Positions 1,520 to 12,153 of a stretch of DNA of 42,395 bases are shown here, piece by piece. Within the stretch, counting starts at the first letter, position 1, and every line of letters begins with the position of its first letter. The translations under genes and the position numbers were made by a program. Under the pieces are notes generated by a model that was given only the letters and a program-made list of their open reading frames with translations, was not told where the DNA came from and did no database searches. The stretch spans positions 1-42,395 of the forward strand of contig CAIYSL010000021.1 of assembly GCA_903928915.1 (NCBI GenBank). The letters are read 5' to 3'. This stretch comes from an uncultured Syntrophobacterales bacterium (GTDB lineage: Bacteria > Desulfobacterota > Syntrophia > Syntrophales > UBA5619).

Positions 1520-3316
1520 ATGAAAGAATCGCAACCGCGCACCTTCGCCGAAAAGGTCCTCGGCGCCCCCGCGGGGGCCATCGTCTTTCGCCGGCCCGAC
1601 ATCGTGCTGACCCATGACAACACGGCCAGCATCGCCGAGACCTTCCGGCAGATGGGCGGGACGCGGCTGTTCGACCCCGGCCGCCATCTCGTAGTGCTCG
1701 ACCATAACGCCCCGCCGACGAACGCCAAGCTGGCCACGGACCACAAGCGGATCCGCGGCTTCGTCGCGGCACAGGGCATCGCACGGTTCGCCGACGCGGG
1801 CGAAGGGATCTGCCACCAGCTGATGGCCGGCCACGCCCGGCCGGGGATGCTGGTCGTCGGCAGCGACAGCCACACCTGCACCGCCGGGGCGTTCAACACC
1901 CTGGCCGTGGGGATCGACCGGACCGAGGCCGCGGGGCTGTTCAGCCGGGGCGAGACCTGGTTTCGGGTGCCCGCCTCGCTGAAGATCACCCTGACCGGGA
2001 CGCTCCCCGCCGGGGTGTACGCCAAGGACCTCGCCCTCTGGATCTTGGGCCTGATCGGCGCGGCCGGGGCAAACTACCTGAGCATCGAATTCCACGGGGA
2101 GGGGGTGGCAACCCTCTCGGTGTCGGAACGGATGACCCTGGCCAACATGGCCTCGGAGATGGGAGCCAAGAACGCCGTCTTCCCCCCCGACGACGTCCTG
2201 GCGGGCTTCCTCGGCAGACCGATCTCCTCCGGGGTGTGGGCCGATCCGGGAGCGACCTACGCCCGGGAGCTGGCGATCGACCTGGGGGAACTGTTTCCGG
2301 TCGTGGCCGCGCCCCACAGCGTCGAGAACGTCCGGGCCGTCTCCGAGGTGGAGGGGACCCCGATCGACGCGGCGCTGATCGGCACCTGCACCAACGGCCG
2401 GCTGGACGACCTGGCCGTTGCGGCCCGGATCCTCGCCGGCCGGCGGGTGGCCCGGGGCGTCCAGCTGCTCGTCATCCCGGCGTCGCGGGAGATCGCGCTC
2501 GCGGCGATCGGCGCGGGGCTTATGGCGGAACTGGTAGCGGCCGGAGCGATTATCCTGGCCCCCTCCTGCGGTCCCTGCCTGGGCGCCGGCCAGGGGATTC
2601 CGGCCGACGGGGACCGGGTGATCTCCACGGCCAACCGCAATTTCCCGGGGCGCATGGGGAACCCCAAGGCGGCGATCACCCTGGCCTCCCCCGCGACCGT
2701 GGCCATGTCGGCGCTCACGGGCTGCATCGCCGATCCCCGCGGGCCGGGCCGCGGCGATCTGTTCAGGACCCCGCTCGCCCCGGCCGCAGCCCCCGGGATC
2801 GTCCCGGGTGAACACCGCAGGCACGGCGGCGTCTGGAACTACGCCGACGCGGACAACCTGAACACCGACCAGCTGTTCGCCGGTAACCTGGTGTACAACA
2901 TCCTGAGCTCCGACGCCCCGGCGATCAGGCCCCACCTGTTTGCGGGCTTCGACCCCGCCTTCGCCGAGGCCGTCGCGCCGGGGGACATCATCCTCGCCGG
3001 CGACAACTTCGGCTGCGGATCTTCGCGGGAGCACCCTTCGGTGGGACTGGCCCACGCCGGGGTGCAGGCCCTGATCGTCAAGGGGGTGAATCGGATCTTC
3101 TACCGCGCGGCGATCAATCAGGGGCTGCCGCTGATCGTGCAGCCCGAAGCGGTCGCCGCATACCGGCCCGGCGACGCGGTGGAGGTGGACTCCGCGGCCG
3201 GCATCGTGCGGATCGGCGCCAGCCGCTTCCGCTTCGCACCCCTCCCCGCCGCGATTCAAGAGATCATCGCGGCCGGGGGGCTGGTAGACTGGATCAAGGA
3301 GCATGACAATGGCTAA
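1520..3316 (+). CDS. Fused LeuC-LeuD type hydro-lyase (3-isopropylmalate dehydratase/homoaconitase family)
   Basis: A 598-residue aconitase-superfamily enzyme in one chain. Residues 1-430 correspond to the LeuC large subunit, with the three 4Fe-4S cysteines visible at C290 (GTCTNGR) and C350/C353 (CGPC), and GSDSHTCT near 114-121. Residues 437-598 correspond to the LeuD swivelling domain, with the FGCGSSREH active-site loop near 497-505. LeuC and LeuD are usually separate polypeptides in bacteria. The loop that governs substrate choice in archaeal relatives reads NLVY at about 456-459, closer to the isopropylmalate-type YLVY than to the homoaconitase-type YLRT, as I recall those motifs. Leucine biosynthesis is possible, but no leuA or leuB is nearby. 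The partners are a B12 mutase and an aconitase, so another C5-C6 branched hydroxy-diacid is a real alternative. It overlaps the next gene by 8 bases, which suggests translational coupling. Confidence 0.85.
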   Translation: MKESQPRTFAEKVLGAPAGAIVFRRPDIVLTHDNTASIAETFRQMGGTRLFDPGRHLVVLDHNAPPTNAKLATDHKRIRGFVAAQGIARFADAGEGICHQLMAGHARPGMLVVGSDSHTCTAGAFNTLAVGIDRTEAAGLFSRGETWFRVPASLKITLTGTLPAGVYAKDLALWILGLIGAAGANYLSIEFHGEGVATLSVSERMTLANMASEMGAKNAVFPPDDVLAGFLGRPISSGVWADPGATYARELAIDLGELFPVVAAPHSVENVRAVSEVEGTPIDAALIGTCTNGRLDDLAVAARILAGRRVARGVQLLVIPASREIALAAIGAGLMAELVAAGAIILAPSCGPCLGAGQGIPADGDRVISTANRNFPGRMGNPKAAITLASPATVAMSALTGCIADPRGPGRGDLFRTPLAPAAAPGIVPGEHRRHGGVWNYADADNLNTDQLFAGNLVYNILSSDAPAIRPHLFAGFDPAFAEAVAPGDIILAGDNFGCGSSREHPSVGLAHAGVQALIVKGVNRIFYRAAINQGLPLIVQPEAVAAYRPGDAVEVDSAAGIVRIGASRFRFAPLPAAIQEIIAAGGLVDWIKEHDNG

Positions 3317-5213
3317 GGGACAAAACCTGGTGGAAAAGCTGATCCGCTCGCACCTCCGTTCGGGCGAGATGCGGGTCGGGACGGAAATCGGCATCGCCAT
3401 CGACCAGACGCTCACGCAGGACCCGATGGGGACGATGGCCTATCTCCAGTTCGAGGGGATGGGCGTAGCGCGCGTCAGGACGAAGCTCTCCGTCTCCTAC
3501 GTCGACCACTGCCTCCTGCAGGAGGGGTTCGAGAATTCCGACGACCACCGCTACCTCCAGACCGTTGCGGCGAAGCACGGCATCCTCTTCTCGAAACCCG
3601 GCAACGGTATCTGTCATCAGGTGCACCTGGAGCGGTTCAGCCGTCCCGGGGAGACGCTGATCGGCGCCGACAGCCACACCCCCACCTGCGGCGCCGTCGG
3701 GATGCTCGCCATCGGCGCCGGGGGACGCGACGTGGCGGTGGCGATGGCGGGCGGGGAGTTCAGTTTCATCTACCCCCAGGTGCTCCGGATCAATCTCCGC
3801 GGCAGCCTGCAGCCCTGGTCGACGGCCAAGGACGTCATCCTCGCCATCCTCAAACGGTTCCGGACCAAGGGCAATGTGGGCAAGGTGATCGAATACGGCG
3901 GGGGGGGGATCGCGGCGCTCTCCGTGCCCGAGCGGTCGACGATCACCAACATGGGGGCCGAGCTCGGGATCACCACCTCGCTGTTCCCGAGCGATGAGGT
4001 CACCCGGCGGTTCTTCGCGGCCCAGGACCGCGAGGCCGACTGGCGCGAGTTCCTGCCCGATCCGGACGCCGGCTACGACGAGGTGGTCGAGATCGACCTG
4101 GGAACGATCGAGCCCAACGTAGCGCGTCCCCACGCGCCGGATAACGTCTGCACGGTCCGCGAGGCGGGGCCGGTGATCGCCCACCAGGTGCTGATCGGCA
4201 GCTGCACCAACTCCTCCTACCGGGACCTGATGATCGTCGCGGCGATGCTGGAGGGGAAACGGGTCCACCCCGACGTGAGTTTCGGGGTGGTGCCGGGCAG
4301 CCGGCAGGTGCTGAGGATGATCACGGAAAACGGGGCGCTCAACAGGATCATCGACGCGGGGGCGCGGATCCTGGAATCGGGCTGCGGGTTCTGCGCCGGC
4401 TACGGCCAGTCCCCGCAGTCGGGGGGGAACTCGATCCGCACGAACAACCGGAATTTCGAGGGCAGGAGCGGGACCCGCGACGCGCAGGTGTACCTGGTCA
4501 GCCCCGAAGTGGCGGCGGCCACCGCCCTCGCGGGCACGCTGACCGACCCGCGGGACCTCGGGATGGCGTATCCCGCGGTGGCGCTCCCGGAACGGTTCTA
4601 CATCAACGACGCCCTGTTCATCCGGCCGGGCGACGGCACGAGCGAGGTGTTCCGCGGGCCGAACATCGGCGCCCCGCCCCGGCAGACGCCGCTGCCGGAG
4701 GAGCTCCGGGCCGGGGTCGCGATCAAGCTGGGGGACGACATCACGACGGATCACATCATCGCCACCGGGTCGGTGAGCCGGTATCGCTCCAACATCCCCA
4801 AGTCGAGTGAGTACGTGTTTCAGCGGATCGATCCGCAGTTTGTGGAGCGGTGCAGGAGCAACGGAGCGCAGAACAGGGCCTCGGTGATCGTCGCCGGGTT
4901 GAGCTACGGACAGGGCTCGTCACGGGAACACGCCGCGCTCTGCCCCGCGTACCTGGGCGTGCGGGTCGTAATCGCCAAGAGCATCGAACGGATCCATGCG
5001 GCCAACCTGGTCAATTTCGGCATCCTGCCCCTGGCCTTCACGGACCCTGCGGACTACGAACAGATCGCCCTCGGCGACGAGCTGTTCATCGCCGACGCCC
5101 GCGCGGCGGTGCGAACGCCGGTCATCGTCGTGGAGAACCGCACGCGCGGCGAAGCCTACCGCCTCGCGCACAGCCTCACGCCGCGGCAGGTCGGGCTCAT
5201 TCTCGGGAGTTGA
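3309..5213 (+). CDS. acn: Aconitate hydratase, Aquifex/putative type
   Basis: A 634-residue aconitase that interconverts citrate and isocitrate through cis-aconitate with a 4Fe-4S cluster. Cluster cysteines are C299 (GSCTNSSYRD) and C359/C362 (CGFC). Substrate-site landmarks are GADSHT near 119-124 and the swivel-domain loop YGQGSSREH. The size and the SVPERSTITNMGAE segment match the short putative (Aquifex-type) aconitases rather than the roughly 900-residue AcnA. The ATG at 3309 is chosen over 3303 because AAGGAG lies seven bases before it but only one base before 3303. The start lies inside the end of the LeuC-LeuD fusion gene. Having two paralogous hydro-lyases in tandem suggests either successive steps of one pathway or co-regulated TCA and branched-acid steps. 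A role on 2-methylcitrate or a related acid cannot be excluded. Confidence 0.9.
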   Translation: MAKGQNLVEKLIRSHLRSGEMRVGTEIGIAIDQTLTQDPMGTMAYLQFEGMGVARVRTKLSVSYVDHCLLQEGFENSDDHRYLQTVAAKHGILFSKPGNGICHQVHLERFSRPGETLIGADSHTPTCGAVGMLAIGAGGRDVAVAMAGGEFSFIYPQVLRINLRGSLQPWSTAKDVILAILKRFRTKGNVGKVIEYGGGGIAALSVPERSTITNMGAELGITTSLFPSDEVTRRFFAAQDREADWREFLPDPDAGYDEVVEIDLGTIEPNVARPHAPDNVCTVREAGPVIAHQVLIGSCTNSSYRDLMIVAAMLEGKRVHPDVSFGVVPGSRQVLRMITENGALNRIIDAGARILESGCGFCAGYGQSPQSGGNSIRTNNRNFEGRSGTRDAQVYLVSPEVAAATALAGTLTDPRDLGMAYPAVALPERFYINDALFIRPGDGTSEVFRGPNIGAPPRQTPLPEELRAGVAIKLGDDITTDHIIATGSVSRYRSNIPKSSEYVFQRIDPQFVERCRSNGAQNRASVIVAGLSYGQGSSREHAALCPAYLGVRVVIAKSIERIHAANLVNFGILPLAFTDPADYEQIALGDELFIADARAAVRTPVIVVENRTRGEAYRLAHSLTPRQVGLILGS

Positions 5214-5285: not shown

Positions 5286-6230
5286 TCAGCGGACGATTCG
5301 CGCCGCCGGTTTGCTCCCGGCGGCGCCGGAGGCGGGCCGCCGGCCGTCCCGGTCGTTGACCTTGCTGAGCCGGTACTGAACGTAGGCGTCACGGATCGCC
5401 ACGTAGGGATCGATGGCCGCTTCCGTGAGGGCTTCGTAGTCGCCGATCGTCAGGGAGGTCTCGTTCACCCGACCGTAGGCCTGCACCCCCGCCGACTCGA
5501 GGAAGCGTTCGGGATAGTAGGCCAGCGGGTGGAGGAACCAATCGCCGATCGTCCCGAGCGTGTCCCGGGGGCTGGACGGCCCGAGGACCGGCCAGTTGAT
5601 GAAGATCCCCTGCCCCACCCCGTATACCCCCAGCGTCTGCCCGAAGTCCTCGTCCTGCCGTACGAGCCCCACCTCCTCGTGGGAGGCGGGATCCAGGAAT
5701 CCCCCGCCCCCGCCGAGGGTGTTGAGCACGAAACGGCCAACCTCCCGGGCCGCGCCGGGAAGGTTCGCCTGGAGCAGGCAGTTGACGAAGCGGACGGGAA
5801 AGGCGAGGTTGGTAAAAAAATTGCTCACCCCCACCCGCGCCGGCTCGGGAACGACCGCCCGGTATCCCTGCGCCACCGGCTTGAACACCCAGAAGTACAG
5901 CCGGTCGTTGAACAGGTACATCGCCCGGTTGAAGGGCTCCAGGGGATCGGCGATGGTTGCGGCTCCCCGCCCGGCCCCCCCCGCGACGGCCTCGTCGGCG
6001 CTCTCCACATAATCGCCGAGATCGTCTGCGGGCCCGGTCGTTTTCGCCGCGGCCGCGAATGCCTGCGGAGCCGCCGTCCCTTCGCCGGCCGCGATCAGAA
6101 CGGCGTCGCTTTCGGCCTGCGCCGCTTCGACAGTGGGCGGTCCCGCCCCGGGCGACGGGTGTTGCCGCCCCTGGGCAGGTATCGGGAGAACCACCGCGGC
6201 CAGCAGAAGGGCACCCAACAGCAGGTTCAT
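5286..6230 (-). CDS. mlaA: MlaA (VacJ) family outer-membrane phospholipid-removal protein
   Basis: A 314-residue MlaA-family protein, predicted to pull mislocalised phospholipid from the outer leaflet of the outer membrane and pass it to MlaC. The core begins near residue 92 with DPLEPFNRAMYLFND and continues through the family motifs FFTNLAFPVRFVN, FVLNTLGGGGGF and the TLGVYGVGQG region. The N-terminus has a hydrophobic signal-like segment, but no lipobox cysteine is visible, and about 65 residues of Ala/Gly-rich sequence separate it from the core. E. coli MlaA is a lipoprotein, so membrane anchoring may differ here. It is the last gene of the mla run, 22 bases after mlaC, and faces the aconitase gene across a 72-base gap in which I see no convincing terminator. 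Confidence 0.9.
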   Translation of the reverse strand: MNLLLGALLLAAVVLPIPAQGRQHPSPGAGPPTVEAAQAESDAVLIAAGEGTAAPQAFAAAAKTTGPADDLGDYVESADEAVAGGAGRGAATIADPLEPFNRAMYLFNDRLYFWVFKPVAQGYRAVVPEPARVGVSNFFTNLAFPVRFVNCLLQANLPGAAREVGRFVLNTLGGGGGFLDPASHEEVGLVRQDEDFGQTLGVYGVGQGIFINWPVLGPSSPRDTLGTIGDWFLHPLAYYPERFLESAGVQAYGRVNETSLTIGDYEALTEAAIDPYVAIRDAYVQYRLSKVNDRDGRRPASGAAGSKPAARIVR

Positions 6231-6252: not shown

Positions 6253-6840
6253 TCACCCGTTCACCTTCTTGCGCAGGATCTCGAGCAGCTGCTCGGGGCT
6301 GTCCTTCGCCAGGATGTCGCTGAACTGGGTGCGGTAGTTCTGGACCAGGCTCACGTTCTCGACGACCACGTCGTACACCTTCCACCCCGCGTCCTTCCTG
6401 ATCACCCGGTAGGCGATGGGGATCTCCTTTGCGGCGGTAATGACCCGGGTGAGCACCTCGCTCTGGTTCTCGGCGAGCTTGTTCTCCCGGTCGTACACAA
6501 TCTTCTCGTCGGTGTAGGCGAGGATCTTGTCGACGTAGGCCCTTTCCAGGACCTGCCGGAAGAGGTGGACGAACTCCTGCCGCTGCGCGGTCGTCAGGCT
6601 GTTCCAGTTGCGCGCCAGGGTCCGGCGGGAGAGCTCCACTTGATCGAACATGCGATCGTAGATCGTCCGCAGCCGCTGTTTCTTGGCCTCCTTCGCCGAT
6701 TCGGCCTTGAGCGCCGGATCGCGCAACACGGCCAGGACGCTCGTCACGTTCGCCTTCACCTCGTCGAGCGGCGCGGCGGCGAACGCCGGCAGCGGAAACA
6801 ATAGCAGCAGCACGATGGGTATGATGAGCTTCCTGCGCAT
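6253..6840 (-). CDS. mlaC: MlaC periplasmic phospholipid carrier
   Basis: A 195-residue Ttg2D/MlaC family protein that shuttles phospholipid through the periplasm between the MlaA and MlaFED complexes. A classical signal peptide (basic MRRK start, long Leu-rich stretch, cleavage after AFA near residue 21) marks export. The rest is the mixed helix/sheet NTF2-like fold, with the family segments LARNWNSLTTAQRQEFV and YRVIRKDAGWKVYDVVVENVS. It lies between mlaD and mlaA with short gaps, in the classic Mla gene order, which supports the assignment. Nothing is missing relative to the usual family length. Confidence 0.92.
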   Translation of the reverse strand: MRRKLIIPIVLLLLFPLPAFAAAPLDEVKANVTSVLAVLRDPALKAESAKEAKKQRLRTIYDRMFDQVELSRRTLARNWNSLTTAQRQEFVHLFRQVLERAYVDKILAYTDEKIVYDRENKLAENQSEVLTRVITAAKEIPIAYRVIRKDAGWKVYDVVVENVSLVQNYRTQFSDILAKDSPEQLLEILRKKVNG

Positions 6841-6857: not shown

Positions 6858-7316
6858 CTATTGCGCCTTCTTCACCTCACCGAAGGCGTACTTCCCGATG
6901 ATCCCGGTGATGTCGAGGGGCGGCTGCGTCTCGGTGATGGTCCCCCCGTCTGCGAGCGGGGCTCCCCCGCCTCCGGGGTCGATGCTGAGATGCTGATCGC
7001 CGATCAATCCTTCCATCTTGATCGAGGCGATGGCGTCGTCGTAGATCGTGACCCCCTTCCGGATCCGCAGTTCCACCACGGCCCGCTGCTCCTTCTGGTC
7101 CATGGCCAGCCGCTCCACCCGCCCGACCTCGATACCCAGCATGTACACGGGGCTGCCCGCACGCAGCCCGGTCACCGAGGTGAACCGGGCAAAGAGCGAA
7201 TAGGTATCGTTGCCCCAGAGCGACACATGGCCGAGCTTCACCGTCATGTACCCGAGCAGCAGCAGCCCGATAACGAGAAAAATGCCGACCGTCGTTTCCA
7301 GCGAATACTTCTTCAT
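6858..7316 (-). CDS. mlaD: MlaD, MCE-domain lipid-transfer subunit
   Basis: A 152-residue inner-membrane-anchored MCE protein. One transmembrane helix covers roughly residues 6-26, followed by the MCE domain (LFARFTSVTGLRAGSPVYM and GIEVGRVERL). MlaD hexamers form the periplasmic ring on the MlaFE transporter and pass phospholipid to or from MlaC. The ATG at 7316 is chosen because GGAGGG lies nine bases upstream; a longer reading frame to 7352 would run into the end of mlaF and adds only non-conserved residues. The gene starts five bases after the mlaF stop, consistent with tight coupling in the operon. Confidence 0.93.
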   Translation of the reverse strand: MKKYSLETTVGIFLVIGLLLLGYMTVKLGHVSLWGNDTYSLFARFTSVTGLRAGSPVYMLGIEVGRVERLAMDQKEQRAVVELRIRKGVTIYDDAIASIKMEGLIGDQHLSIDPGGGGAPLADGGTITETQPPLDITGIIGKYAFGEVKKAQ

Positions 7317-7320
7317 CTGC

Positions 7321-8565
7321 TCATACCCTCCCGTCGCACCGCAGCCGGGCAATCACCTTGAGTTGATGCCGCGCCGAAGCGATGATCGGCCCGATCTCCG
7401 CGATCGGGTCACCCTGCGCGATCCCGGCCTGAATGGCGAATTCCACGCACTCCCCCGAAAAGGCGCGCCTGCGGGCGCCGTCCCAGATGTCCCGGATCCC
7501 CTGCCCCTCGAAATCCTTGCCGAACGCCCGCAGGATGCTTTCCGCCTCGTCCAGGTCCGAATAGGGAAGCACCGTGGCGAACTCGTTCGTCTGGGTCCGC
7601 GTGGAAAATCCCCCGATGGCGCTGAAATGCTTGTCGATGAACATCCCCATCCCCCGGATCGCCTCCTGCGCCGCATCGTAGCCCAGGTTCGCGACGATCG
7701 CGTCCAGTTCATCCAGGACGAACACCACGACCGTGTAGGTCTCCCCGTACTCGCGCCGTTTCAACTGGGCGTGGTTCAGGATCTTAAACTGCCGTCGCGA
7801 GTACAGGCCGGTCAACTCCTCCTGAAACCCCTCCAGGCTGCGGATGACCTCATCCTTGAAGGGGTGCGCGAAATCCTCCAGCTCTTCCGGCGAACCCTGA
7901 AAAACGATCTTGCGATCGTACAGGGCGAGGATGCGGTTGGAGATGAAGTAGACATCGGGGATCTCGTGGCTGACCAGGATCGCCGTGAACCCGAATTTCC
8001 GCTGGTACTGGGCGATCATGCTCAGGATCGCGTTCTTCCGGACGGGATCCTGGCCGGAGGTGGGTTCGTCGAACAGCACGATGCGCGGATCGGTCACCAG
8101 CGCCCGCGCCAGAGCCACCCGCTTCTGCATCCCCCCCGAGAGTTCCGACGGGTACTTGGCGGCGGCGTCGGCCAGTTCGGTCTGCTCCATCCTCGCCCGC
8201 ACCCGCCCGTCGATCTCCGCTTTGTCCAGGTTCGTCGTTTCCCTGAGCGGAAGCGCGATATTGTCGTACACGGTCAGGGAGTCGAACAGGGCGTTGTCCT
8301 GGAACATGTAGCTTATCCGGGCCAGCGAGGCCGCCGCCTCCCGTTTTCTCATCTCGGCAAGCGGCATTCCCCGAAACAGGATAGTCCCCTGATCGGGCCG
8401 GAGCAGCCCGATGATGTGCTTGAGGATTACGCTCTTTCCCGAACCGCTCAGGCCGATGATCGTCGTCACCTCGCCTTCATAGATCCGGAAATTGACCGCA
8501 TCGAGGATCGTCCGGGATCCGAAGCGCTTGGTCACCTCCTGAAACTCGATGAGCGGCGTATCCAT
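7321..8565 (-). CDS. mlaF: MlaF ABC ATPase fused to a C-terminal degenerate GGDEF-like domain
   Basis: A 414-residue protein. Residues 1-245 are a standard MlaF ATPase that powers the MlaE permease: Walker A GLSGSGKS at 38-45, signature LSGGMQKR at 142-149, Walker B VLFDEPTSG around 163-171 with E167, and the switch His at 200. MlaF proteins normally end near residue 270. Here about 165 more residues follow. They resemble a GGDEF (diguanylate cyclase) fold: LTGLYSRRQF at 251-260, the VVVFVLDELDAI strand-loop where LDLDxFK normally sits, TQTNEFATVLP at 324-334 in place of the RGGDEFxxLLP signature, and FAIQAGIAQG near 376-385 matching the usual SxGxA strand. The signature glycines and catalytic acid are gone, so synthesis of cyclic di-GMP is unlikely. 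A regulatory nucleotide-sensing or structural role is inferred. Confidence 0.88.
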   Translation of the reverse strand: MDTPLIEFQEVTKRFGSRTILDAVNFRIYEGEVTTIIGLSGSGKSVILKHIIGLLRPDQGTILFRGMPLAEMRKREAAASLARISYMFQDNALFDSLTVYDNIALPLRETTNLDKAEIDGRVRARMEQTELADAAAKYPSELSGGMQKRVALARALVTDPRIVLFDEPTSGQDPVRKNAILSMIAQYQRKFGFTAILVSHEIPDVYFISNRILALYDRKIVFQGSPEELEDFAHPFKDEVIRSLEGFQEELTGLYSRRQFKILNHAQLKRREYGETYTVVVFVLDELDAIVANLGYDAAQEAIRGMGMFIDKHFSAIGGFSTRTQTNEFATVLPYSDLDEAESILRAFGKDFEGQGIRDIWDGARRRAFSGECVEFAIQAGIAQGDPIAEIGPIIASARHQLKVIARLRCDGRV

Positions 8566-8574
8566 AGGGCTATC

Positions 8575-9444
8575 CTAGATGAGCAGGGACGTCACGATGT
8601 AGTCCGAAACCAGGATCAGGACGCAGGAGATGACGACCGCCGAGGTGGTGGCGAGACCGACCGCCTTGGCGCCGTGGCCGTCGGTCCGCAGGTGCGCAAA
8701 ATAGCCCTGGTAACAGCAGACCGTGGCGACGATCACGGCAAACACGACGGCCTTGACCAGCCCGTCGACCACGTCCTTCATCTCCATGCTCACCTGTACG
8801 CGGTACAGATAGGTGCCGCCGTTGGCGCCCAACAGCAGGACCCCGGAGATGTACCCGCCGACGATGCCGATCAGGTCGAACAGGGTGGTGAGCAAGGGGA
8901 AACTGATGATCGCGGCGGCGATCCGCGGGCTGATCAGGTACTTAAGCGGATCGATGCGCATCGTGTCCAGGGCATCGATCTGCTCGGAAATCCGCTGGCT
9001 GCCGAGCTCCGCGGTGATCGCCGAGCCGGCCCGGGCCGTGATCATGATGGCGGTGAGGACCGGCCCCAGCTCCCTGACCAGGGACAGGACCACCAGGGTG
9101 CCGAGGGCGCCTTCGGCACCCACCTTCACCAGGGCGTGGTACGATTGGAGCCCCAGGACCATCCCGGTGAACAGGCCGATCAGCAGGATGATGGGGGTCG
9201 ACCGCGCCCCGATGTAGTGGATGTGCTGGACGATCCGGGAAAGCTGCTTGGCGCGGGGGACCTTCACGAGCGCCAGCACGAGGAATATCGCCGCGGCGCC
9301 CAGGTTGTTCGTCCAGTCGATCGCCTTCCCGCCGAGGCGGGCGAACGGTCCGGTCACCGCCATGGCCAACCGCCGGGACACCGTATCTTCGGGAGTCCCG
9401 CCGGGCCCCGCGCCGCGCTCGCCCTCTGTCCAGGAGTGTTCCAT
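8575..9444 (-). CDS. mlaE: MlaE permease of the phospholipid transporter
   Basis: A 289-residue inner-membrane permease of the Mla (YrbE) family that forms the MlaFEDB-type core with MlaF and MlaD. It has the usual five or so hydrophobic segments and the conserved signature LVRELGPVLTAIMITARAGSAITAELG, here cited as LVRELGPVLT then ARAGSAITAELG, followed by SEQIDALDTM. The start at 9444 is preferred because an ACGAGG site lies six bases upstream; an in-frame ATG at 9462 is an alternative adding six residues. It begins the mla block proper, about 50 bases after the aminotransferase stop, with a GC-rich palindrome at the boundary. Confidence 0.92.
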   Translation of the reverse strand: MEHSWTEGERGAGPGGTPEDTVSRRLAMAVTGPFARLGGKAIDWTNNLGAAAIFLVLALVKVPRAKQLSRIVQHIHYIGARSTPIILLIGLFTGMVLGLQSYHALVKVGAEGALGTLVVLSLVRELGPVLTAIMITARAGSAITAELGSQRISEQIDALDTMRIDPLKYLISPRIAAAIISFPLLTTLFDLIGIVGGYISGVLLLGANGGTYLYRVQVSMEMKDVVDGLVKAVVFAVIVATVCCYQGYFAHLRTDGHGAKAVGLATTSAVVISCVLILVSDYIVTSLLI

Positions 9445-9466
9445 AGCAGACCTCGTTTCCATCGCC

Positions 9467-9481
9467 CGGGCCCGGGGCCCG
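9467..9481. repeat. GC-only palindrome between aminotransferase gene and mlaE
   Basis: A 15-base palindrome, CGGGCCC-G-GGGCCCG, lies just before the mlaE start. It has no T-run, so it does not look like an intrinsic terminator. It may fold in the mRNA and lower or tune mlaE translation; that is an inference. Confidence 0.4.
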
Positions 9482-9492
9482 GCGTGACATGC

Positions 9493-10413
9493 TCAGACGG
9501 TGGGGAACAGCCAGCCCCGAAACCGCTCATCCCTGCCGGAGGCGATCGCCGCGATCCCGTTGGCGAGGCGGGAGGTCACCGCCCCCGGGACCCCGGCGAG
9601 GCGGCGCCCGTCGATCTGCCGGATCGGCAGAACCCGCGCCGAGGTGCTGGAGAGGAACAGCTCTTCCGCGTCCTCCAGCAGCACCGGGCTCAGCCGGCCG
9701 GTGACCGTCTCGATCCCCATCGCCTCGGCCACCGCGAGCAGCGATTTGCGGGTGATGCTCTGCAGCACCGTCCCCAGGGACGGCGTCAGCAGGCGCCCCC
9801 CCCGGACGAGGAACAGCGATTCGGTCGCCCCCTCCGCGAGGAATCCCTGGGTGTCGAGGAGCACCGCCATGTCGAACCCCCGTTTCCTCGCCTCGGCCCG
9901 GGCCACCATCCCGTTGATGTAGTTGGCCGCCACCTTGGCCTCGACCGGAACGGTCTGCGGGTCCAGCCGCCGCCACGTGGATACGCAGGCGGTGGCGCTG
10001 CCGCCCGCCCGTCCGCCGTTCCCGCCGGGGGGCTCGTCGGGTGCGAACACGAACACGGCCACCTGGAATCGCTGCCCCGGCGGGAGGACCCCGGAGGAGA
10101 CCTCGGGGTAGAACCCGAACACCTTGATCAGCCCGGCCGCAAGCCCGCTCCGCCTGACGGTCTCAAGGACCGCCTCGTGCAGCTCGGCCGGCGTGAGCGG
10201 CGGCTCCATTCCGAGCAGGCAGGCGGACCCGAAGAACCGGGCGCAATGCTCATCCAGGCGGAAGACGGCCGGTCCGGCGGGGGTGTCGGTAAAGGCGATC
10301 ACCTCGAAAATCGCCGATCCCCGGGCGAAACTGTGGCTCATGATGGGGACATTTGCCTCATCCCAGGGGCAGTACCGACCGCCCAGATACACGACCCGCC
10401 CCTCGACCATCAT
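9493..10413 (-). CDS. Class IV pyridoxal-phosphate aminotransferase (branched-chain/D-amino acid type)
   Basis: A 306-residue fold-type IV PLP enzyme of the IlvE / D-alanine aminotransferase / aminodeoxychorismate lyase group. The PLP lysine is in VEAKVAANYINGMVA, preceded by ordinary family features and followed by GFLAEGATESLFLV and the TPSLGTVLQSITR phosphate-binding segment. The YLGGRYCPWDEANVPIMSHSF N-terminus (first half cited) is typical of the branched-chain side of the family, but members cannot be separated reliably by eye, so no symbol is given. The start may be the ATG at 10413 or 10410; a GAGGAGG site sits just upstream. It lies upstream of mlaE on the same strand and may share its transcript. 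The LeuC-LeuD-like gene is about 6 kb away on the other strand. Confidence 0.85.
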   Translation of the reverse strand: MMVEGRVVYLGGRYCPWDEANVPIMSHSFARGSAIFEVIAFTDTPAGPAVFRLDEHCARFFGSACLLGMEPPLTPAELHEAVLETVRRSGLAAGLIKVFGFYPEVSSGVLPPGQRFQVAVFVFAPDEPPGGNGGRAGGSATACVSTWRRLDPQTVPVEAKVAANYINGMVARAEARKRGFDMAVLLDTQGFLAEGATESLFLVRGGRLLTPSLGTVLQSITRKSLLAVAEAMGIETVTGRLSPVLLEDAEELFLSSTSARVLPIRQIDGRRLAGVPGAVTSRLANGIAAIASGRDERFRGWLFPTV

Positions 10414-10512
10414 TCGCCCTCCTCACGGCTCCGCCGAAGCAGGCGCCGGCAACCGTCTGCCCGAGACGGACCGCCCCCGGACGGCGACGGAAAATGGTGG
10501 CTTTTTCTCCAA

Positions 10513-10579
10513 TTTCTGCTATCCATAGGCGCGCCGTTTCGAGACGGCAGGTCCGTGACAGGCGCGATAGTAGCAGAAA
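10513..10579. promoter_or_regulatory. Long-spaced inverted repeat in divergent intergenic region
   Basis: The 186-base gap between the leftward aminotransferase gene and the rightward ModF-like gene contains perfect 9-base arms, TTTCTGCTA at 10513-10521 and TAGCAGAAA at 10571-10579. They enclose a smaller hairpin (GCCGT/ACGGC, 10533-10548). The right arm ends just before the ModF-like ribosome site. It could be a paired operator or an mRNA leader fold. I could not pick out convincing -35/-10 boxes for either gene here. Confidence 0.4.
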
Positions 10580-10599
10580 GGCAGGAGGATTACAACCCT

Positions 10600-12153
10600 G
10601 TGGAACAGTATTGTGAACCGAAAACGCGCCAGCCGCTGATCACGCTGGAGCGCGTCACGCTCCGGGTGGGAGACCGGATGCTCCTGCCCGGCACCTCCTG
10701 GGAGATCAACCGCGGCGAGAACTGGGCGATCCTGGGGCCCAACGGGTCGGGGAAATCGGCGCTGGTCAGGGCCGTTAAGGGCGACGTGCCGCACGTGCGG
10801 GGACGGCTGGTCCGTCACGACCCGCAGGCCGAAGGCAGGAGGATCGGGTACCTCTCCTTCGAACTCCAGGAGGAGATCCTGGCGCGCGAGGAGTTCCGCG
10901 ACGAGGAGCGGTGCTTCAGCGGCAGGGGGCACGAGCTCACCGCCGGGGAACTGCTCGGGGCCGACGGCGCCGACCCGGCAGCGCGTCAGCGGCTCGTCGG
11001 GATCCTGGGAATCGGCGCCCTGCTCGACCGCGGGTTCCGCTTCCTGTCCAACGGCGAGATCCGGAAACTCCTGATCGCCCGGGCGCTCCTGCCGGCGCCG
11101 AAGCTGTTGATCCTGGACGACCCCTTCGCCGGGCTGGACGCCGGGGTCCGCCCCCCCTTCGCCGCGGCCCTGTCAAACCTGATGCGGGAGGGGACGCAGC
11201 TCATCCTCGTGGTCCAGCGGCCCGAGGAGGTGATCCCGGGGATCACGCACGTGCTGATCATCCGCAACGGCCGCGTCGCCCTGGCGGGGAGGCGCGACGA
11301 TGTCCTGACGCCGGCGCGGATCAGGCGCCTGACGGCGCCGCGGGTCGCGGTGCGGACGAGTCCGCTGCCGGCGATCCGTCTGCCGCTTCCCGAGACCGGA
11401 GACACCGCGCTCCCCCCGGGCGAGCCGCTCGTGGAGATGCGGGACATCCGCGTGGCCTACGGCCGACAGGTCGTCCTCGACGGCCTGAACTGGACGGTCC
11501 GGCGCGGGGAGCACTGGGCCGTGGTCGGACCGAACGGGTCGGGGAAATCGACGCTGGTGAGCCTGATCACCGGGGACAACCTGCAGGTGTACGCCAACGA
11601 GGTGCGCCTGTTCGGGACACGCCGGGGCGAGGGGGAGAGCATCTGGGACATCCGGCGGAAGATCGGCCTCGTCTCCCCCGAGCTCCAGCTTCGGTACCGC
11701 AAACCCGTCTGCGTCCGGGAGGTGGTCCTGTCGGGCTTTTTCGACTCGATCGGCCTGTACCGCCGGCCCGAACCCGGCCAGGAGGCGATCGCCGACCGCT
11801 GGCTGGAAATCCTCCGCATGACCGAGAAGGCCGAGCGGCTGTTCACCCACCTCTCCTACGGGGAGAGGCGGCTGGCGCTGATCGCCCGCGCGATGGTCAA
11901 AGCGCCGGAACTGCTGATCCTGGACGAGCCCTGCCAGGGGCTCGACCGCACAAACCGGGAGAGGGTGCTGTCGCTGATGGAGAAGATCGGCGCGGAGACG
12001 GCGACAGGGCTGATCTACATCACCCACCACGCCGAGGAGATGATCCCCTGCATCGATCACCTGCTCAAACTGGAGAAGAAGGGGGCCGCGGTCACCGCGG
12101 GCGAGCCGGCGTCGGGACCTCCGGATGCGGCCCCTCGGCCAGGAGACGGCTGA
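10600..12153 (+). CDS. modF: ModF-like tandem ABC ATPase
   Basis: A 517-residue soluble protein with two ABC ATPase domains and no membrane segment. The first domain has Walker A GPNGSGKS at 46-53, signature LSNGE and Walker B LLILDDP near 169-175. The second has GPNGSGKS at 310-317, LSYGE near 418-422, LLILDEP near 438-444 and switch ITHH. The second half matches my recollection of E. coli ModF closely (GESIWDIRRKIG and VVLSGFFDSIGLY). ModF is named for its molybdenum-operon position, but its role is not settled and no mod gene is visible here. The first domain has Asp for the catalytic Glu and no switch His, so it may be weakly active. The GTG at 10600 is chosen because AGGAGG lies 11 bases upstream; the open frame continues much further upstream only as an antisense shadow. 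Confidence 0.88.
   Translation: MEQYCEPKTRQPLITLERVTLRVGDRMLLPGTSWEINRGENWAILGPNGSGKSALVRAVKGDVPHVRGRLVRHDPQAEGRRIGYLSFELQEEILAREEFRDEERCFSGRGHELTAGELLGADGADPAARQRLVGILGIGALLDRGFRFLSNGEIRKLLIARALLPAPKLLILDDPFAGLDAGVRPPFAAALSNLMREGTQLILVVQRPEEVIPGITHVLIIRNGRVALAGRRDDVLTPARIRRLTAPRVAVRTSPLPAIRLPLPETGDTALPPGEPLVEMRDIRVAYGRQVVLDGLNWTVRRGEHWAVVGPNGSGKSTLVSLITGDNLQVYANEVRLFGTRRGEGESIWDIRRKIGLVSPELQLRYRKPVCVREVVLSGFFDSIGLYRRPEPGQEAIADRWLEILRMTEKAERLFTHLSYGERRLALIARAMVKAPELLILDEPCQGLDRTNRERVLSLMEKIGAETATGLIYITHHAEEMIPCIDHLLKLEKKGAAVTAGEPASGPPDAAPRPGDG

Follow-up and report, generated by a model that had tools for sequence, protein, structure and literature searches.

A degenerate GGDEF-like domain on the MlaF ATPase of Desulfobacterota, a candidate regulatory or dimerising module

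The known players in the regulation of the Escherichia coli Mla system are MlaB and the tail of the ATPase MlaF. This tail, a short C-terminal extension, reaches across to the partner MlaF; MlaF no longer functions when it is deleted, and function is for the most part restored if GCN4, a dimerisation domain, is put there instead (PMC7367683, where MetNI is also discussed). MlaB is reported to be sparsely distributed in diderms (PMC10665443). Among degenerate GGDEF domains, that of SgmT combines a dead active site with an intact I-site and has been shown to bind c-di-GMP, and PopA has the same pattern (PMC3509222). The same work covers the I-site pair, the secondary arginine (SgmT R794, which by offset corresponds to R390 of PleD, the reference for residue numbering used here) and K442/R446.

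Each part is of a known kind, be it the Mla ATPase, the degenerate GGDEF domain or the regulatory domain at the C-terminus of an ABC ATPase; their combination in one protein, conserved across much of the phylum Desulfobacterota, is without precedent in the literature searched. As the original prediction had supposed, no described MlaF with such a domain was found there: no paper links MlaF with GGDEF in that literature, from which most subscription papers and all bioRxiv preprints fell outside the scope, and NCBIfam gave no model for the combination.

The fusion gene, its operon and the fold of the added domain

The mlaF fusion gene occupies positions 7321-8565 on the minus strand of the window (the whole stretch of DNA analysed, 42,395 nucleotides) and consists of a single open reading frame with an ATG start, encoding 414 amino acids. 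The ABC ATPase part spans residues 1 to about 235/236 (7861..8565, minus strand). It includes the Pfam ABC_tran match (residues 21-170, 121 bits) and carries a Walker A motif (GLSGSGKS), an Mla-type signature (LSGGMQ, with the SGGMQ core) and a Walker B motif (VLFDEP). The best NCBIfam model for this part is MlaF, at 190 bits, which does not reach the equivalog cut-off of NF008809 (441 bits); on these scores the protein is a divergent MlaF, outside NCBI's definition of the E. coli equivalog.

The neighbouring genes complete an operon in the order mlaE, mlaF, mlaD, mlaC, mlaA, all adjacent and on the same strand. The permease gene mlaE (8575..9462, minus strand; Pfam MlaE, 257 bits) lacks a STAS domain. 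The MCE protein gene mlaD (6858..7316, minus strand; an open reading frame with a Pfam MlaD match of 69.5 bits) has its start codon 4 bases past the mlaF stop, and is followed by mlaC for the periplasmic phospholipid carrier (6253..6840, minus strand; Pfam MlaC, 155 bits) and mlaA for the outer-membrane lipoprotein (5286..6230, minus strand; Pfam MlaA, 229 bits). The operon contains no STAS gene, and the three STAS_2 matches of the genome lie on other contigs. Among the matches listed, the unfused MlaF operons of the phylum likewise have no neighbouring STAS gene. Fused operons lack MlaB, but its absence is not specific to the fusion, since the unfused operons lack it as well and the protein is reported as sparse in diderms; the idea that the added domain replaces MlaB was dropped on these grounds.

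Other features of the window and its genome were recorded alongside. A second, separate transporter operon of the same genome (L167:2235-4174, on G000:C115) has a STAS domain fused to its MlaE permease. An antisense open frame of 1647 codons (7210-12153, plus strand) spans mlaF, mlaE and an aminotransferase gene, and is probably a high-GC artefact joined at its 3' end to a real gene for a two-ABC ATPase. Two adjacent, slightly overlapping open reading frames lie at 1520-3316 and 3303-5213 (plus strand); the first belongs to the aconitase family according to Pfam, and the second, from its sequence, also reads like an aconitase. The window has no Rfam match, a c-di-GMP riboswitch or other RNA having been looked for.

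Behind the ATPase, residues 250 to about 410 (7336..7818, minus strand) form the GGDEF-like domain. Pfam GGDEF (PF00990) matches residues 250-346 with 29.0 bits in the whole protein, and with 31.3 bits (E 2e-7) when the domain is isolated, in both cases above the gathering cut-off of 23.8 bits; the cut-off of TIGR00254 is not attained (22.6 bits against 37.4). An AlphaFold2 model of the domain, made from the window sequence and 54 relatives, has a pLDDT of 83.8 and a pTM of 0.78. GGDEF domains are its best matches in the PDB (Foldseek E 2.4e-6 to 3ign), and the GGDEF domain of PleD superposes on it with a VIA-align Z of 13.5, at 2.4 Å over 125 residues. The original prediction, a complete MlaF ATPase followed by a degenerate domain of GGDEF fold, is borne out by both profile and predicted structure, which yielded this and not an unrelated fold. 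Its landmarks also hold: LTGLYSRRQF at residues 251-260, a strand near 279-288, QTNEF at 325-329, and AGIAQG at 380-385 for the SxGxA strand. As far as sequence and model can tell, the domain is a genuine GGDEF-fold domain that is catalytically dead. The lost signature and an identity to solved GGDEF domains of only about 11-21% might suggest that the annotation or assembly is at fault or that the likeness to GGDEF is accidental; this explanation is already refuted by the score above a curated cut-off, the Z value and the recurrence of the same fusion in many independent assemblies, and its probability is practically nil. A full-length model for placing the domain on the ATPase was not used, as its confidence was too low (single chain, pLDDT 70).

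A linker helix, residues 236-249 (FKDEVIRSLEGFQE; 7819..7860, minus strand), predicted to be helical, leads into the domain. It is near-invariant among 23 relatives, ranks among the best conserved parts of the protein, and in the alignment sits where the C-terminal extension of E. coli MlaF starts.

Ligand sites and the two states of the domain

In the alignment with 11 canonical GGDEF domains, the place of the GG[DE]EF signature is taken by QTNEF (7579..7593, minus strand), and the intact signature occurs in none of the 153 MlaF-fused domains that were aligned, from 154 distinct fusion proteins collected in total. At the PleD sites D327, N335 and D344 the window protein has V, V and Q, and K442 is deleted; the change from D344 to Q is found in 124/153 aligned domains and the position of K442 is absent in 153/153. 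In PleD, D327 is the metal aspartate, N335 and D344 are guanine ligands, and K442 is a phosphate ligand. In the GGDEF family, loss of the signature together with these ligands rules out ordinary catalysis. Because the window domain has lost the signature, the metal and guanine ligands and K442, ordinary cyclase activity is ruled out for it, and the earlier view that catalysis is unlikely is upheld. An active cyclase fused to MlaF was looked for among the relatives, and the matches scoring near canonical GGDEF domains were all degenerate.

The I-site is lost as well. Receptors of the PopA/SgmT kind carry RxxD five residues ahead of the signature, where alignment places AIGG in the window protein (residues 316-319; 7609..7620, minus strand). 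This tetrapeptide runs into GGFSTR (residues 318-323; 7597..7614, minus strand), a motif conserved in the I-site's place in what is here called state A; four of its residues (G318, G319, S321 and R323) do not vary among 55 aligned domains. State A comprises 100 proteins, including that of the window, from Syntrophales; their RxxD has mostly become (A/P)(I/V)GG inside the GGFSTR motif, and PleD position 390 is mostly D. The distance from FQG of the ATPase to LTG of the domain is 29 residues in 99/100 of them, and likewise in most of the other proteins that could be read. Judging by its residues, neither classical nucleotide site is left in the window protein, and the earlier suggestion of nucleotide sensing finds no support as far as these sites go.

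Two rival readings bear on this part of the domain. According to the first, the window domain senses a nucleotide or another small molecule at a remodelled pocket, so that transport in Syntrophales would still be under ligand control. Most state A proteins (86/100) keep the glutamate at PleD position 371, and in 70 of them D/E370 has become N, a conservation beyond random decay; with the metal, guanine and phosphate ligands gone and AIGG in place of the I-site, we nevertheless regard ligand sensing at this pocket as quite improbable. According to the second, the domain mainly docks a partner, such as a regulator, a diguanylate cyclase or a polarity factor, with dimerisation secondary, and localises the Mla system as the domains of PopA and SgmT do. 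Conservation of GGFSTR at the former ligand site would suit such a role, and the degenerate GGDEF domain of SgmT works by spatial sequestration (PMC3509222). The loci of the relatives, searched only for mla genes, yielded no partner gene, so that the partner would have to be encoded elsewhere; a role centred on docking is unlikely, if plausible.

State B, a group of 45 proteins, presents a different picture. The corresponding stretch typically reads R(I/V)TD(T/I)CSRYG(M/L)NKI, and the I-site arginine is present in 34/45 and the aspartate in 45/45, with K/R at PleD position 390 in 38/45; the active site is dead. With RxxD largely kept and the active site dead, state B has the pattern of the c-di-GMP receptors SgmT and PopA. 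The arginine, missing in 11/45, lies at the 76th percentile of column conservation and is not invariant. A correlated loss of this arginine and its basic partner residue was looked for within state B and not seen. Eight further proteins of the 153 aligned belong to neither state.

From its residues, the state B domain still looks able to bind c-di-GMP, hinting at a link between lipid transport and signalling, and the domain may originally have sensed this messenger. The genome of the window encodes at least 8 proteins with intact GG[DE]EF, so c-di-GMP is presumably made in the host. The proposed link between phospholipid trafficking and intracellular signalling has uneven support: for the window protein, which has lost RxxD, the classical sites lend it none, and as a link to c-di-GMP it is better supported in the sister group that keeps the motif. 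A specific version can be put forward tentatively, as possible though short of probable. It holds that in the Mla systems of Desulfobacterota c-di-GMP binds the ATPase directly through a GGDEF-derived receptor domain (state B) and gates phospholipid traffic between the membranes, and that the lineage of the window lost the ligand site, the domain now being a fixed structural or partner-binding part.

State B proteins, such as that at L247:799-2028 (minus strand), also have two cysteines, 96% and 87% conserved, the first lying 4 residues ahead of where the old signature starts and the second 20 residues past that point; neither was seen at its place in state A. One locus (L082:3706-9291, on the contig of G174:C15, L162) has two MlaF fusions close together in one genome, the state A copy belonging to a full mlaEFDCA operon and the state B copy lying downstream.

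Distribution, origin and selection

About 85,000 species genomes were scanned with patterns derived from the domain, and 80 of the 89 loci were listed. These are mostly from Syntrophales, with some from Desulfobacterales, and the survey of Mla operons recovered the same MlaF fusion in 79 of the 80 listed; in the remaining one (L117:1761-2982), a frameshift splits the fusion between ATPase and domain. The order mlaE-F-D-C-A is kept in most listed loci long enough to tell. At a threshold of E 1e-65, a sample of 297 genomes across the phylum gave 57 MlaF-type matches. Among the 39 best (at least 280 bits), 38 have the domain, two of these being broken by contig ends with the remainder of the gene on a second contig; the exception is the genome G269. 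The 18 matches below 270 bits are short frames, and the 15 that were fetched end 10-35 residues past the ATPase. Searches centred on two other orders returned many more fusions. A Syntrophales-type mlaEFDCA operon also appeared on a contig titled 'candidate division WOR-3' (L103), which is probably misbinned or misnamed.

In a tree of the ATPase part, a branch with support 97 has every fusion on the same side. That side also includes three unfused proteins, two on long, unsure branches and the third being that of G269, sister to G435. The domain tree separates all MlaF domains, as a single group, from the canonical GGDEF domains (support 100) and places state B as sister to the others (support 90); in the ATPase tree state B stands at the base of the fused part, where supports are modest. 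The simplest reading of these trees is one ancient fusion of a GGDEF domain to MlaF, in an ancestor within Desulfobacterota. The changes common to the family, D344 to Q and the absence of K442, also point to one origin.

G269 (L214, on G269:C24) is apparently a clear case of secondary loss, and its sister G435 (L295, on G435:C232) has a very divergent domain. As G269 keeps a complete mlaEFDCA operon, the domain is dispensable in that lineage. This loss beside a very divergent relative, together with a domain that evolves faster than the ATPase, could suggest a functionless passenger in decay. Pairwise dN/dS is mostly 0.1-0.4 for the domain (mostly 0.05-0.15 for the ATPase), and invariant motifs, a fixed linker and retention of the domain almost throughout the sampled set of this MlaF type make a passenger very improbable. 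The domain is clearly under purifying selection, though it evolves faster than the ATPase. This selection and the recurrence at 79 of 80 listed loci show that the fusion is not an assembly artefact.

Proposed role and relation to described systems

The alignment to E. coli MlaF has the GGDEF-like domain begin about where the C-terminal extension starts. Because it takes the place of this tail, itself largely replaceable by GCN4, the domain would be expected to serve the ATPase dimer; the dimer-interface role proposed earlier is compatible with the evidence. By this analogy we lean, by a small measure, towards a regulatory and dimerising module on the ATPase that replaces the 'handshake' tail, tuned by c-di-GMP in state B and structural or partner-binding in the window copy.

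Such a module would have arisen early in Desulfobacterota, through a single fusion of a GGDEF domain to the MlaF C-terminus at the site of the E. coli 'handshake' tail. In the MlaFED complex, two copies would lie side by side beneath the ATPase dimer, where the pair may regulate and stabilise it in the manner of the C-terminal domains in MetN or MalK, the fixed linker helix transmitting movement. The I-site retained in state B might let c-di-GMP bridge or reorient both domains, so that transport is tuned. For the window protein and the related Syntrophales proteins, whose ligand sites are gone, a structural, dimerising or partner-binding role would most likely be kept through a conserved surface of the domain's own, made of GGFSTR and the linker helix.

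The domain is a disabled copy of the kind that makes c-di-GMP, placed on the Mla motor across a whole branch of sulfate-reducing and syntrophic bacteria. With the c-di-GMP binding motif of state B on the ATPase itself, the question whether a second messenger governs lipid homeostasis in the outer membrane becomes directly testable, and the natural series from a putative receptor to a ligand-free scaffold offers a setting for studying how a pseudo-enzyme changes role.

Compared with described systems, the window protein is, like MlaF of the E. coli MlaFEDB complex, an Mla ABC ATPase with the same operon partners; the two proteins align at 38% identity. However, E. coli MlaF has a handshake tail of about 25 residues and the STAS protein MlaB, whereas here a GGDEF-like domain of about 165 residues is found and the operon has no mlaB. 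The domains of PopA and SgmT also combine the GGDEF fold with a dead active site, and state B shares their RxxD and the basic residue at PleD position 390; those domains sit on a response regulator or a kinase and this one on the ATPase of an ABC transporter, its window copy without an I-site. LapD, whose degenerate GGDEF domain is the best NCBIfam match of the isolated domain (24 bits), is likewise non-catalytic, but it sits in the membrane as a receptor and binds c-di-GMP with an EAL domain, which the window protein lacks. MetN and MalK also have a folded, transport-regulating domain after the ATPase, ferredoxin-like in MetN and of OB type in MalK, but in neither case derived from GGDEF.
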